This document shows, one piece after another, positions 6,561 to 38,168 of a stretch of DNA of 51,936 nucleotides. The position numbers and the translations under genes were made by a program. This DNA comes from Candidatus Firestonebacteria bacterium RIFOXYD2_FULL_39_29 (GTDB lineage Bacteria > Oederibacteriota > D2-FULL-39-29). Position 1 is the first letter of the stretch; every line of letters begins with the position of its first letter. The notes below the pieces were generated by a model that made no database searches, was not told where the DNA came from, and saw only the letters and a list, made by a program, of their open reading frames with translations. The stretch lies in contig MFGV01000015.1 in NCBI GenBank assembly GCA_001778375.1, forward strand, positions 1 to 51,936, given 5' to 3'.

Positions 6561-6640
6561 TAAAGCAGGTTGAGCTCGACAGTCAGAATATGTAGAGTGC
6601 TGCATTATGTTTTTAAATAATAAACATCACATTATTATAT

Positions 6641-6685
6641 AACCTTATAAACCTTATTAACTTTACAAACTTTATGAACAGGCTT
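6641..6685 (+). repeat. Degenerate 9-bp tandem repeat upstream of a propeller gene
   Basis: Units AACCTTATA, AACCTTATT, AACTTTACA and AACTTTATG follow each other exactly at period 9, with a fifth partial unit AACAGGCTT, ending 17 bases before the ATG at 6703. The same family is at 33542 and 38098. Confidence 0.8.
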
Positions 6686-6702
6686 AAGCAAGGAAACTAC
6701 AG

Positions 6703-9331: not shown

Positions 9332-9370
9332 TGACAAAAATGAACGATAAGCAATTTATAATACATTTTT

Positions 9371-9406
9371 GTCATCCCCGAGTGTTTTTATCGGGGATCC
9401 AGTGTC
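9371..9406 (+). repeat. Dispersed hairpin repeat, copy 2
   Basis: Arms ATCCCCGA (9374-9381) and TCGGGGAT (9391-9398) are flanked by the family ends GTC and CCAGTGTC. It is nearly identical to copy 4 at 13670. Confidence 0.85.
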
Positions 9407-9480: not shown

Positions 9481-10593
9481 ATGGACTCTAAAAAGCTCAA
9501 ATACAGTCTAATCATTCTAGCAATCGGGTTGCTAACGGGCTTCGCCTTAACATTCTGGCTTGTTCCGGATAATCCCTATATTCCGGGGAATGATAAAGCA
9601 GGACTGGAAACCGGAGAATTAGACGCGAAATATAAATATAATATTGAGGAGTATAAGAAAGTTGACCCAAAGCTTGTGCTTTATGGCGAGTATGCCGCAG
9701 AAAACCACGGAGGTAACTCCGTGGATGAATGCGGCATGAATAATAAATTGAATTCCACTCGCCGAAACTCCGGACGTAAGTCCGCAGAGGTTCATAAGGA
9801 GTTGCCGGGTTTTAAGACAGAATTTGATGCGGCAACAGGAATAGTAATTGACAAAAAAGACAGGATATACATTTGCGGGGATACCGGGGTAAAAACATTT
9901 GATGCAAATGGAAAATTGCTTTCGGAGATTCCGACTGTGAAGAAAGTTACAGCAATAGCCGTAATGGGAACTGGTATCATATATGCGGCGCTTCAGGATG
10001 TTGTTTATAAGGATGTAAATAGAAGTTTTGGGAAGAAAGGCAAGGCCCCCGGTGAGTTCGAATATATCACCTCTATGAAAATAAACGGGGGCAGATTATT
10101 TATCGCAGATGCCGGGAATAGAAGGGTTTCGGTGTTTGATCTAAACGGCAAGTATCTTTATGAGTTTGGCAGAAAAGATGCGGCTAAAGGAATAAAAGGT
10201 TTTATCATCCCCAGCCCGCATATGGACCTGGACTTTGATAAGGATGGAAACCTCTGGGTGGCAAACACCGGAATGCTCCGTCTGGAAAAATACTCTCCTC
10301 AGGGTGTGCTTCTATTTACCTGGGGAAAAGCCGGTTCAAAGCTGGAAGAGTTTATCGGCTGCTGTAACCCCGCTAACTTCGCGATCATGAGTGACGGCAG
10401 TTTCATAACAAGCGAAAAGGGTCTGCCTCGGATAAAGCTATACGGCAAAACAGGAAAATTTATAGGCGTAGTAGCCCCGCCGTCATCTTTTAATGAAAAA
10501 TGCATCAATATGGCACTTGCAGTGGATTCTAAGAATAGAGTTTACGCGTTAGATTCGGCGGAAAAGAAAGTAAGAATTTTCGAAAGAAAATGA
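9481..10593 (+). CDS. Membrane-anchored NHL/6-bladed propeller protein with an in-frame palindromic insert
   Basis: 370 residues. One N-terminal helix (about 8-27, LIILAIGLLTGFALTFWLV) is followed by NHL-type blades: GIVIDKKDRIYICGD, KINGGRLFIADAGNRRVSVFD and DFDKDGNLWVANTG. Such propellers are usually extracytoplasmic binding or scaffolding domains. Residues about 71-103 (rich in Asn, Gly, Arg and Ser) interrupt the link between the anchor and the first blade. They are encoded by two DNA palindromes (9693-9736 and 9768-9787), so they look like a repeat inserted in frame. The gene stands alone between repeat-rich spacers. Confidence 0.8.
   Translation: MDSKKLKYSLIILAIGLLTGFALTFWLVPDNPYIPGNDKAGLETGELDAKYKYNIEEYKKVDPKLVLYGEYAAENHGGNSVDECGMNNKLNSTRRNSGRKSAEVHKELPGFKTEFDAATGIVIDKKDRIYICGDTGVKTFDANGKLLSEIPTVKKVTAIAVMGTGIIYAALQDVVYKDVNRSFGKKGKAPGEFEYITSMKINGGRLFIADAGNRRVSVFDLNGKYLYEFGRKDAAKGIKGFIIPSPHMDLDFDKDGNLWVANTGMLRLEKYSPQGVLLFTWGKAGSKLEEFIGCCNPANFAIMSDGSFITSEKGLPRIKLYGKTGKFIGVVAPPSSFNEKCINMALAVDSKNRVYALDSAEKKVRIFERK
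9693..9787 (+). repeat. Palindromic element inserted in frame within a coding sequence
   Basis: The outer stem TGCCGCA/TGCGGCA (9693-9699/9730-9736) encloses, symmetrically, a perfect 8-bp hairpin CCACGGAG/CTCCGTGG (9705-9712/9717-9724) with loop GTAA. A second hairpin CGGAC/GTCCG (9771-9775/9780-9784) has the same GTAA loop and extends through one mismatch. No stop codon is created in the reading frame. The arrangement recalls Rickettsia palindromic elements, but no sequence relation is claimed. Confidence 0.75.
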
Positions 10594-10691: not shown

Positions 10692-10757
10692 GTCATCCCG
10701 TACTCAGATACCTTTTGTTTTGCCCGCCAATCTTTAAGGAGGGCGGGATCCAGTGTC
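10692..10757 (+). repeat. Dispersed hairpin repeat, copy 3, with inserted loop module
   Basis: Ends GTCATCCCG (10692-10700) and CGGGATCCAGTGTC (10744-10757) enclose a long loop. The loop carries a second hairpin, CCCGCC/GGCGGG (10723-10728/10742-10747), around AATCTTTAAGGA. The same loop module is in copy 6 (33368) and, inverted, in the cloverleaf at 26607. Confidence 0.8.
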
Positions 10758-10790
10758 TGTTAAGTAATTTTGTATGACTTTAGGAGAAAA

Positions 10791-13567: not shown

Positions 13568-13669
13568 TGCAGGATGCGCGGAAGAGCGGAGGCGCAGAGG
13601 CGCAGCAAAAAATCGAGGACAGAGGACGGAAGGCTGATAAAAGGTACGACAGATAAGCTCTCTCTTTCT

Positions 13670-13705
13670 GTCATCCCCGAGTGTTCTTATCGGGGATCCA
13701 GTGTC
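13670..13705 (+). repeat. Dispersed hairpin repeat, copy 4
   Basis: Arms ATCCCCGA and TCGGGGAT with ends GTC and CCAGTGTC; it differs from copy 2 (9371) by one loop base. It lies after the composite module that begins at the propeller stop (13567). Confidence 0.85.
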
Positions 13706-27659: not shown

Positions 27660-29323
27660 AACATATAACAGGGCTAAGAAAATACTTTTATCTGGCAAGA
27701 GGGCTTTTAAATATTGATATCTTTAAGCTGCCGGTCGGTTTTGTCTGGTTTATGTTCAGGCAGATGCGACATGAGAAACTCACCCATCTTAACGGAAAGA
27801 CGATAGTCAGCACGAATTTTTCTCCGCTCCCGTCAAAATCCTACAACTCTGCGCTAAGACGCTTTGTTCAGATGTCAAAAGGCGAGTTCATTCCTTTTTC
27901 GGCGTATTTTGCAGTTACCGACAGATGCCCCTATGACTGCTGGTATTGCAGTAACGGAGGAAAAACAGATAAGAAAGACCTTAGCACAGAAGAAACGAAA
28001 AAAATAATTAAAATACTTCAAGCTGTGGGCGTATCCTGCATCGGCTTTTCAGGGGGTGAACCTCTTGAGAGGGAGGATATAAACGAACTGATTAAATCCG
28101 TTGATGCAAGGTCTTACTCGATTCTTTTTACCACTGGCTATGGTCTTACACAGGAGAAAGCATTTGAACTTAGAAATGCAGGTTTGCAAGCTTTAGTCGT
28201 AAGTCTGGACAGTCATATTAAAGAAGAGCAAAACATAAGTAAAAGCAATGATAAAGCTTATGAAAATGCCGTTAATGCAGTAAAATGTTCCGTAGAAGCG
28301 GGTATATACACGGCATTAAATATGGTTATCTCCAAGGATATGCTCTATTCGGACAAGAAAAATGAATATCTTAAATTTGCAGGAGAGATAGGAGTTCATG
28401 AACTTAGGATTTTGGAGCCGTCTCCATGTGGAAAGTTGTTTTCCGGGGAGTATGAAAAGTTTACCGAGGAAGACAGAATGAAAATAAGAGAGTTTCAGTA
28501 TGAGGTTAACAAGGATCCAAATCTACCCAAGGTTATGGCCTATGCTCATGCTACTTCTGATGGGATATTCGGATGTGGTGCAGGAATATACCATATGCAT
28601 GTTACCGCAAAAGGTGAAGTCACCCCCTGTGATCTGGTACAAGTTGCTGCGGGAAATCTCCTTAAGGAAAGTTTTGCTGACATTATGAAAAGGATGAGAG
28701 AGTTCATCCCAAGGCCTTCAGAATATTGCATTTCGAAAGGAGTGGCTGAGAAAGCTAATTGGAATCCTTCAAAAGGATTGCCTTTGAAAGATTATGAAAA
28801 AAACAAAACCTTGCTTAATTCTTTAGATTATGGCAGGATGCCTTTGATGTATGCTAAACTTGTTAAGGTAACCAGATTGGATGTTGGAGGAAATGGCAAA
28901 ATGAAGATAAAAAATATATATCATTTTCTTTCGGTTCTTTTTGTCTGTGCCTGTACGGGCTTAAATGGGTGGTTTTTTGGACAGGCTGGAGGTAATGCAA
29001 GTGCAATAACCGGTGGTATTTCGGGAGTGATAGCAGGGTATCTATTTTTATACGGGTATTATAAAACTAATAGAATTTGGAAAGTTAGACTGGCAAAAGC
29101 AACCAAACTTGGTGGAATCTACGGGGCAATATCAGGTTTTCTTGTCTATGTCCCAAGTTTCTTTGTACCAAATGATTTAGTTCACAGCTCATTACTCGGA
29201 ATGTTTATAATGGCTGGGATATTTATTGGTTGGATTACCGGATCAATTCTTGGAAATATTTTTGGCCGTCTTCTTTTTAGAGTCAGAATGGAGAAAGAAG
29301 TTAAATCTAATCCGGCGGCTTAG
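27656..29323 (+). CDS. Radical SAM enzyme fused to a small membrane domain
   Basis: 555 residues overlapping the UbiA stop by 4 nt (ATGA). The radical SAM core spans about 80-290, with cluster cysteines C91, C95 and C98 (CPYDCWYC) and the SAM-binding GFSGGEPL. A partial SPASM-like end carries GCGAG and VTPCDL. From residue 416 a separate unit of about 140 residues with four membrane helices follows (KIKNIYHFLSVLFVC, GGISGVIAGYLFL, GGIYGAISGFLV). This unit is duplicated as the next free-standing gene. GGAGG at 28886-28890 precedes an in-frame ATG at 28901, so the membrane part might also be made alone. The reaction is unknown. Confidence 0.87.
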   Translation: MKHITGLRKYFYLARGLLNIDIFKLPVGFVWFMFRQMRHEKLTHLNGKTIVSTNFSPLPSKSYNSALRRFVQMSKGEFIPFSAYFAVTDRCPYDCWYCSNGGKTDKKDLSTEETKKIIKILQAVGVSCIGFSGGEPLEREDINELIKSVDARSYSILFTTGYGLTQEKAFELRNAGLQALVVSLDSHIKEEQNISKSNDKAYENAVNAVKCSVEAGIYTALNMVISKDMLYSDKKNEYLKFAGEIGVHELRILEPSPCGKLFSGEYEKFTEEDRMKIREFQYEVNKDPNLPKVMAYAHATSDGIFGCGAGIYHMHVTAKGEVTPCDLVQVAAGNLLKESFADIMKRMREFIPRPSEYCISKGVAEKANWNPSKGLPLKDYEKNKTLLNSLDYGRMPLMYAKLVKVTRLDVGGNGKMKIKNIYHFLSVLFVCACTGLNGWFFGQAGGNASAITGGISGVIAGYLFLYGYYKTNRIWKVRLAKATKLGGIYGAISGFLVYVPSFFVPNDLVHSSLLGMFIMAGIFIGWITGSILGNIFGRLLFRVRMEKEVKSNPAA

Positions 29324-29333
29324 GGAGAAAAAC

Positions 29334-29780
29334 ATGAAAATTAAAAACGTATATCATTTTTTTGCAGTTCTTTTTGTATGTGCCTGTACTGGATTGAATG
29401 GTGCTTTTTTTGGCCAAGCAGGAGGTGTCGCAGGATCAATAACCGGCGTTGTTACCGGAGTAATAGCGGGATATCTGTTTTTGGATGGTTATTATAAAAC
29501 TAAAAGAATTTGGAAAGAGCGGATAACAAAAGCCACAAATCTTGGCGGGATCTATGGGGCAATCTCTGGATTTCTTGTTCATATTCCTAATCTCCTGTAC
29601 CCTCTGAAAGGCAATAACTCTATGTTAGGTATATTCCTTTGGGCAGGTCCGCTTGTTGGAGCTATTTCCGGTTTAATTCTAGGAATTATTTTGGGAAGTA
29701 TCCTTTATGGAGTCAGGATGGAATCAGAAGAAGAGTCAAAACAGGTAGAGCAAGAGGAAAAACCAAAGGAAAATGCTTAA
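29334..29780 (+). CDS. Small four-helix membrane protein, paralog of the radical SAM C-terminal domain
   Basis: 148 residues from ATG 29334 with GGGAG upstream. About 70% of positions match the C-terminal 140 residues of the preceding protein by eye: MKIKNVYHF, LFVCACTGLNG, FFGQAGG, GVIAGYLFLDGYYKTKRIWK and LGGIYGAISGFLV. Four hydrophobic glycine-rich helices and an acidic tail (ESEEESKQVEQEEKPK) are visible. The family is not recognised. Tandem duplication followed by fusion, or loss of a stop, explains the pair. It overlaps the methyltransferase gene by 8 nt, so it belongs to the same transcript. Confidence 0.78.
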   Translation: MKIKNVYHFFAVLFVCACTGLNGAFFGQAGGVAGSITGVVTGVIAGYLFLDGYYKTKRIWKERITKATNLGGIYGAISGFLVHIPNLLYPLKGNNSMLGIFLWAGPLVGAISGLILGIILGSILYGVRMESEEESKQVEQEEKPKENA

Positions 29781-33367: not shown

Positions 33368-33428
33368 GTCATCCTGAACTGGGTTTCTTTTCACCCGCCA
33401 ATCTTTAAGGAGGGCAGGATCCAGAGTC
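33368..33428 (+). repeat. Dispersed hairpin repeat, copy 6, with inserted loop module
   Basis: Ends GTCATCCTG (33368-33376) and CAGGATCCAGAGTC (33415-33428). The loop includes CCCGCCAATCTTTAAGGAG as in copy 3. It starts 6 bases after the GIY-YIG stop. Confidence 0.8.
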
Positions 33429-33461
33429 TTTTTTGTTATGAAGTTATTTTGTTGTTTTAAA

Positions 33462-33494
33462 GACACTGGATACCGGATCTCAGTCCGGTATGAC
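33462..33494 (-). repeat. Dispersed hairpin repeat, copy 7
   Basis: Inverted relative to copies 5 and 6. Arms ATACCGGA (33470-33477) and TCCGGTAT (33484-33491) with ends GACACTGG and GAC. Confidence 0.85.
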
Positions 33495-33500
33495 AAAATA

Positions 33501-33530
33501 AAAAGGGCGGGAGATTATCCCGCCCTTTGC
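33501..33530. terminator. Bidirectional intrinsic terminator downstream of fba
   Basis: Perfect 8-bp stem GGGCGGGA/TCCCGCCC (33505-33512/33518-33525), with four A before and three T after it. It can end the leftward ndk-fba transcript and the rightward GIY-YIG transcript. Confidence 0.8.
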
Positions 33531-33541
33531 TTTTACTTTAT

Positions 33542-33577
33542 AAACTTTACAAACCTTATGAACCTTACAAACTAACG
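33542..33577 (+). repeat. Degenerate 9-bp tandem repeat
   Basis: Units AAACTTTAC, AAACCTTAT, GAACCTTAC and AAACTAACG at period 9, between the terminator and the end of fba. Same family as 6641 and 38098. Confidence 0.75.
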
Positions 33578-33589
33578 AATAAGCTTCGC

Positions 33590-38038: not shown

Positions 38039-38097
38039 AGTGAAGAAAGATTTACATATAGGAGTTGTTAAAATAAAATAATATCACATTTGAAAAA

Positions 38098-38133
38098 GAC
38101 TTTATAAACCTTACAAACCTTATGGACCTTATA
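38098..38133 (+). repeat. Degenerate 9-bp tandem repeat
   Basis: Units GACTTTATA, AACCTTACA, AACCTTATG and GACCTTATA at exact period 9, directly before the terminator between the convergent EamA and trpB genes. Here the tract is not upstream of any gene. Confidence 0.8.
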
Positions 38134-38138
38134 AACTT

Positions 38139-38168
38139 AAAAAGGCCTCCGTTTCCGGAGGCCTTTTT
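38139..38168. terminator. Bidirectional terminator between EamA and trpB
   Basis: Perfect 8-bp stem GGCCTCCG/CGGAGGCC (38144-38151/38156-38163) with loop TTTC, five A before and five T after. Confidence 0.9.

Follow-up and report, generated by a model that had tools for sequence, protein, structure and literature searches.

The window, a 51,936-nucleotide stretch of contig MFGV01000015.1 from Candidatus Firestonebacteria bacterium RIFOXYD2_FULL_39_29, encodes a membrane-anchored protein with a six-bladed NHL propeller, and a palindromic unit of 111 bp lies in frame within its gene (Table 1). A sequence-only reading had placed this palindrome at 9693-9787 with about 33 encoded residues. These limits describe the inner core of the element and the segment is indeed in frame, but the true unit spans 9685-9795 and encodes 37 residues, 69-105, which include the peptide stretch GEYAAENHGGNSVDECGMNNK. 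Translation of the ORF confirmed that the reading frame stays open throughout. The comparison of NHL orthologs that had been proposed as a check found residues 69-105 precisely missing from all seven Firestonebacteria orthologs, and none of the seven carries the protein segment without the DNA palindrome. The nearest ortholog has CTTTACAAGG at the place where the window gene has CTTTAT-element-AAGG.

In the AlphaFold model of the NHL protein, pLDDT is <50 at residues 70-102 and >90 on the blades after the insert. The insert is predicted to form an extra disordered loop that joins the membrane-side linker or anchor to the propeller; that it is a by-product tolerated by the protein is more likely than that it is an adaptive domain. 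In Rickettsia, a guanylate kinase carrying an insert of a Rickettsia palindromic element (RPE) is reported to be translated and to keep its activity, its affinity for the substrate being altered (PMC2229807); by analogy, it may be a reasonable model for tolerance of the insert in the NHL protein.

Both hairpins with GTAA loops noticed earlier were found, the first being P3 and the second (CGGAC-GTAA-GTCCG, 9771-9784) the inner part of P4, as was the symmetric 7-bp stem round the first hairpin, P2. Two further helical parts were absent from the earlier description, namely P1 (GGCGAGT/ACTCGCC), which encloses P2 and P3, and a pairing that lengthens the second hairpin outwards (GAAACTC/GAGGTTC, 9764-9770 / 9787-9793). 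The fold of the window copy has an energy of -53.6 kcal/mol, compared with -27.5 +/- 3.4 for dinucleotide shuffles (z -7.7), none of 200 shuffles being as good. The four helices are common to three sister subfamilies, with many compensatory changes. When 34 pairs were scored over 24 copies of the three subfamilies, 92.1% of cells were paired, against 31-44% with partners slid by 1-3 columns, and two-sided changes were observed in 115 cells compared with 39.6 in shuffles. The stems exchange G-C, A-U and C-G pairs, and the AGAAAA/ATGAAT loop, the GAATAAT linker and the 3' end AGAG(G/T)TTCAT are near-fixed. The helices are conserved and the stem sequence is not. In two copies (L017 and L072) a mismatched internal loop was corrected to a perfect palindrome, and another (L215) has a terminal exact fold-back of its own 5' arm, which suggests DNA events of the kind expected from template switching on a DNA hairpin.

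Table 1. Positions in the window of the NHL gene, the inserted element and its helices
Feature	Position	Strand	Evidence
Host gene, membrane-anchored NHL/6-bladed propeller protein, 370 aa	9481..10593	+	ORF; Pfam NHL 2.3e-09; orthologs in relatives
Target site TTTAT, retained 5' of the insertion	9680..9684	+	TTTAT at 57/61 distinct sites (rest TTAT/CTAT); empty site CTTTAC-AAGG in nearest ortholog
Mobile palindromic element (very probable), 111 bp = 37 codons (GEYAAENHGGNSVDECGMNNKLNSTRRNSGRKSAEVH)	9685..9795	+	copies elsewhere; exact gap in all orthologs; covariance model 136 bits
P1 5' arm GGCGAGT, pairs with 9757-9763	9685..9691	+	fold; 80% of cells paired, two-sided changes at 4 pairs
P2 5' arm ATGCCGC, pairs with 9731-9737	9692..9698	+	98.6% of cells paired; GC/AU/CG swaps at inner pairs
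Internal-loop strand AGAAAA, opposite ATGAAT at 9725-9730	9699..9704	+	near-invariant in three subfamilies despite changing stems
P3 hairpin CCACGGAG-GTAA-CTCCGTGG	9705..9724	+	94.6% of cells paired, two-sided changes at 5 pairs
P2 3' arm GCGGCAT, then near-invariant GAATAAT linker	9731..9737	+	copy alignment, pairing statistics
P1 3' arm ACTCGCC	9757..9763	+	pairing statistics
P4 right-end hairpin GAAACTC-CGGAC-GTAA-GTCCG-CA-GAGGTTC	9764..9793	+	93% of cells paired; 3' terminus TTCAT/TTTCAT near-constant in all copies

Dispersed copies, target site and orientation

A genome-wide palindrome search, the other check proposed at the outset, found that the element recurs both inside genes and in intergenic DNA. 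The host genome (G000, 3.0 Mb) holds 13 exact occurrences of GGACGTAAGTCC, and BLAST returned about ten near-identical copies, the full or nearly full ones at 95-100% identity, together with longer or divergent variants. The longer variants carry extra hairpins within their loops and reach 259 bp; a subfamily at 75% identity is also present. A covariance model gave about 47 hits in the host genome and 2 in G002, of which the one inspected (L208) is diverged; four genomes from a second family of the order gave 52, 43, 29 and 19. When one genome per GTDB species was scanned for exact motif matches, the conserved 3'-half pattern was found in 48 stretches, all from Candidatus Firestonebacteria. 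The viral contigs scanned gave no match to the element pattern, an Rfam scan of the element region gave none either, and the titles and abstract openings of the screened papers that mention Firestonebacteria contain no account of such an element.

Among 61 distinct insertion sites, 57 have TTTAT on the left and the others TTAT or CTAT; the next base on the right is A or T, with little further information there, and the element is 111 long at 41 sites. The target is asymmetric, its five fixed bases all lying on the left. In the NHL gene the 111-bp unit was inserted precisely 3' of a TTTAT, and this unit recurs at dozens of places in the host genome and its relatives. No terminal inverted repeats were found when GGCGAGTATG was compared with the reverse complement of the 3' end, ATGAACCTCT. 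Comparison with empty sites revealed no target duplication beyond a possible 2-bp AT, which remains compatible because the 3' end of the element also ends in AT.

With the replication strand assigned from GC skew only, element orientation matches the regional skew in 59 of 69 copies (p 1e-9), and in the host genome alone 18 of 21 copies are oriented with the G-rich strand. Where the skew and the nearest gene are discordant, the element follows the skew in every case (18/18, p 8e-6). The G-rich strand bears 84% of genes, and leading strands usually carry the majority of genes. The sequence of the G-rich strand is that of the lagging-strand template, and the orientation bias is a signature that fits lagging-template preference.

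Several other repeats were observed. A second dispersed family has a like layout and a TTTAT left edge with another sequence (TGTGCAGGCGGTTTTGAAAACC...GGATGAAAAAACCGC...); it occurs in the host genome (L203, L204, L206, L207) and in G003/G004 (L213, L214, L221), and has a relative in another family of the phylum (L209-L212, G027). The weaker covariance-model hits in other families of the phylum, where inspected (G027), are this second, sequence-distinct element. A hairpin repeat CCGCCAATCTTT..GGAGG lies within GTCATCCC...GGATCCAGTGTC repeats in the window (10713-10768, 33384-33439) and has 27 exact-pattern matches in the genome, several of them nested in loops of longer element variants (L018, L026, L037, L205). 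Palindromic intergenic repeats of the form TGTCATCCC...GGGATCCAGTGTC are dispersed in both orientations (window 9366-9406, 13665-13705, 808-848 and 33455-33495), and intergenic arrays of 9-bp units (ACCTTATAA/ACTTTACAA) lie at 6624-6698, 33526-33582 and 38090-38146. In the second family of the order, TTTATAAC/ACGTT stretches resembling the 9-bp arrays stand beside many element copies, perhaps owing to their richness in TTTAT. The window also contains two 264-nt direct repeats, 77% identical and 433 bp apart (28898-29161, 29331-29594).

Insertions in coding sequence

Gap-free empty-site orthologs reveal the same event in at least five genes besides NHL. In a response regulator (L011), the insertion splits the receiver domain at DYL|KPF; the ortholog in G001 has no interruption. 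Gapless empty-site orthologs also exist for a YfhO-family membrane protein with a 63-nt element remnant, for a DUF3795-like Cys-rich protein and a small helical protein, each with an antisense copy, and for a DJ-1/PfpI gene with a 180-bp variant. The DUF3795-like and small helical hosts were named by sequence inspection and have no Pfam match. The DJ-1/PfpI gene is probably decaying, since a nonsense codon stands about 23 codons upstream of the element. An antisense copy changes the C-terminal end of LpxK. For L015, kept as an ORF-spanning case, no full-length ortholog was found.

Genic cases were collected by joining the sequences on either side of each copy whose left end could be recognised, and seeking long ORFs irrespective of frame. 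Five clean sense genic insertions of subfamily 1 were obtained (L009, L011, L015, L022, L024), and all are in phase 0, the sole open sense frame of this subfamily. Phase 0 accounts for 39% of sense TTTAT sites in host coding sequence; the chance of five out of five is about 0.009, or about 0.023 for four out of four without L022, a truncated copy added separately that was found through its open frame. In the antisense direction, the third phase is impossible because ATAAA would put TAA in frame, and both possible phases are open in subfamily 1. Every sense frame of subfamilies 2 and 3 is closed, and no in-frame genic copies of either were found. The exact 111-bp copies of subfamily 1 in the host genome number nine, six of them in ORFs (L009, L011, L012, L013, L014, L015). 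As judged by conceptual translation, a genic copy in the open sense frame or on the antisense strand amounts to 37 extra codons.

Selection for open frames within the element was also considered and rejected as unproven. Three of the six frames are open, a number matched by 18-24% of randomised sequences and thus not unusual, and the element therefore need not have evolved to be coding.

Two further genic copies were observed. A 181-bp variant (L029/L031, G000:C26:5904-6089) stands at the upstream end, or start, of the gene for an NAD(P)H-hydrate dehydratase and seems to provide it with an in-frame start codon and so with a new N-terminus; L029 was excluded from the clean in-frame list because 181 bp shifts the frame. 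A subfamily-3 copy with closed frames, from the second family of the order (L087:7441-7503), lies in sense near the N-terminus of a GNAT acetyltransferase ORF; it probably either disrupts this ORF or sits upstream of the true start.

Proposed mode of movement

The segment in the NHL gene is very probably one copy of a Candidatus Firestonebacteria mobile element that is non-autonomous and folds into hairpins. From the one-sided target, the subterminal hairpins and the lagging-template bias, we infer transposition like that of IS200/IS605 or REP/RAYT elements; single-stranded transposition on the lagging-strand template by a Y1 transposase acting in trans is moderately favoured. In this model, the element would move as single-stranded DNA on the lagging-strand template and would be cut and rejoined, in trans, by a tyrosine HUH (Y1) transposase. 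TTTAT would be the left target and cleavage site and TTCAT the right terminus, and the folded hairpins would act as the recognition signal for the transposase, as in IS200/IS605 and REP/RAYT. Selection would purge genic copies that break the frame, and those tolerated in loops or linkers would remain.

Candidate enzymes were found. The host genome has five Y1 genes of RAYT type (one partial), with one above the curated cut-off, and REP-associated Y1 transposases are present in element-rich genomes; no Y1 gene was found in G002, the genome with only 2 element hits. A search for one RAYT clade or ortholog common to all element-bearing genomes found none, and members of the phylum without the element have RAYTs just as often. 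For this reason, and because the surroundings (about 1.5 kb) of 25 Y1 genes, from nine genomes with incomplete assemblies, contained no element ends, no Y1 gene is named here as the mobilising enzyme.

Other explanations were weighed against single-stranded transposition. A classic MITE, the deletion derivative of a DDE transposon moved via its terminal inverted repeats with duplication of AT (or TA), would likewise be small and dispersed without coding for its own movement, and AT does stand at both edges of nearly all copies. The two ends, however, are not mutual inverted repeats, the target has its five fixed bases on a single side, and an orientation bias by replication strand is unexpected for double-strand cut-and-paste, and we regard a MITE as unlikely. 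A mobile structured RNA, spread by reverse splicing or reverse transcription, or a regulatory RNA, is somewhat less likely again. Such an RNA would be removed or bypassed like an intron or a byp element and would add no residues to the protein. The strongly covarying helices and conserved internal-loop bases do resemble functional RNA, but Rfam gave no match, orientation tracks replication and not local transcription, and many copies are intergenic, with some antisense within genes. Moreover, the sense genic copies all use a single open frame, which would be needless if they were skipped, and the fold-back and loop-correction copies are DNA events.

The remaining explanation, that the segment has long been a functional part of the NHL protein and is palindromic by chance, is extremely improbable. 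It would account for the open frame and the otherwise intact protein, but the segment is predicted to be disordered, and the explanation is refuted by the insert-free state of all seven orthologs and by the same DNA at dozens of unrelated places.

A broader reading of the mobile element is held tentatively, at slightly below even probability. Here, a superfamily of replication-coupled single-strand transposons, sharing TTTAT and nested hairpins, would have diversified in the phylum. One subfamily, 111 nt long and with one sense frame and the two usable antisense frames open, would be frame-compatible. Of the nine full-length copies that this subfamily has in one genome, six would serve as coding sequence in ORFs, and the subfamily would constitute a live generator of protein insertions outside Rickettsiales.

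Comparison with known palindromic elements

In-frame palindromic repeats have been described in Rickettsia and Wolbachia and, less strikingly, among ERIC, Correia, YPAL and REP repeats (PMC2229807, PMC10969869, PMC3733652). The RPE and the Wolbachia palindromic elements (WPE) are 105-146 bp long, structured and dispersed, and are either intergenic or in frame in conserved protein genes (PMC2229807, PMC10969869). The Firestonebacteria element is also a dispersed palindromic repeat, with 111 bp within the class of about 100-150 bp, and is found in frame in several unrelated genes with insert-free orthologs (NHL, response regulator, YfhO, DUF3795-like, small helical protein, DJ-1). It differs in its occurrence, since the scan for its exact motif in one genome per GTDB species gave matches in Firestonebacteria only and none in Rickettsiales, and in having resolved empty sites, a TTTAT target and a replication-strand bias; the target-site duplication of RPE is listed as unknown (PMC2229807). 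The sequence-only reading had likened the insert to RPE in an unrelated lineage, and the copies and empty sites support this at the DNA level. The Firestonebacteria element is the same kind of phenomenon as RPE/WPE, from an unrelated family.

Correia elements have an open 107-bp form fused into reading frames and a 155-bp form with stops that is intergenic (PMC2229807). This open-genic and closed-intergenic pattern, shared with the ERIC and YPAL/RU-2 class, is repeated by subfamilies 1 and 3. Correia and ERIC elements end in inverted repeats and duplicate a TA at their target (PMC2229807), whereas the Firestonebacteria element lacks such repeats and shows no duplication beyond a possible AT.

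A one-sided target, subterminal hairpins and lagging-template bias characterise single-stranded transposition of IS200/IS605 and REP/RAYT (PMC6006769). The Firestonebacteria element resembles these systems, REPINs included, in its subterminal hairpins at both ends (P2/P3 and P4), its fixed 5' target tetra- or pentanucleotide, its conserved 3' terminal bases, its lagging-template preference and the presence of Y1 genes in its host. It differs in lacking a GTAG/GTRG guide or tag and an adjacent transposase or RAYT gene, and in its nested four-helix architecture. No clear counterpart was seen to the left guide of IS608, which precedes the hairpin foot on its 5' side. P4 has a GAAA at its foot that might base-pair with the 3' end, and no tetranucleotide is conserved 5' of P2.

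The best-known in-frame palindromic elements are those of Rickettsia and, to our knowledge, no mode of movement has been established for them. The present element adds an independent example from an uncultured candidate phylum. Its empty sites are clean and its target is sharp, it bears a replication-strand signature and comes with a testable model of mobility, and its frame-closed sister subfamilies serve as built-in controls. This opens two old questions to testing, namely by what means such elements move and whether proteins just tolerate them or gain useful parts from them. The architecture and the strand signature set the Firestonebacteria element apart from the known in-frame palindromic elements.
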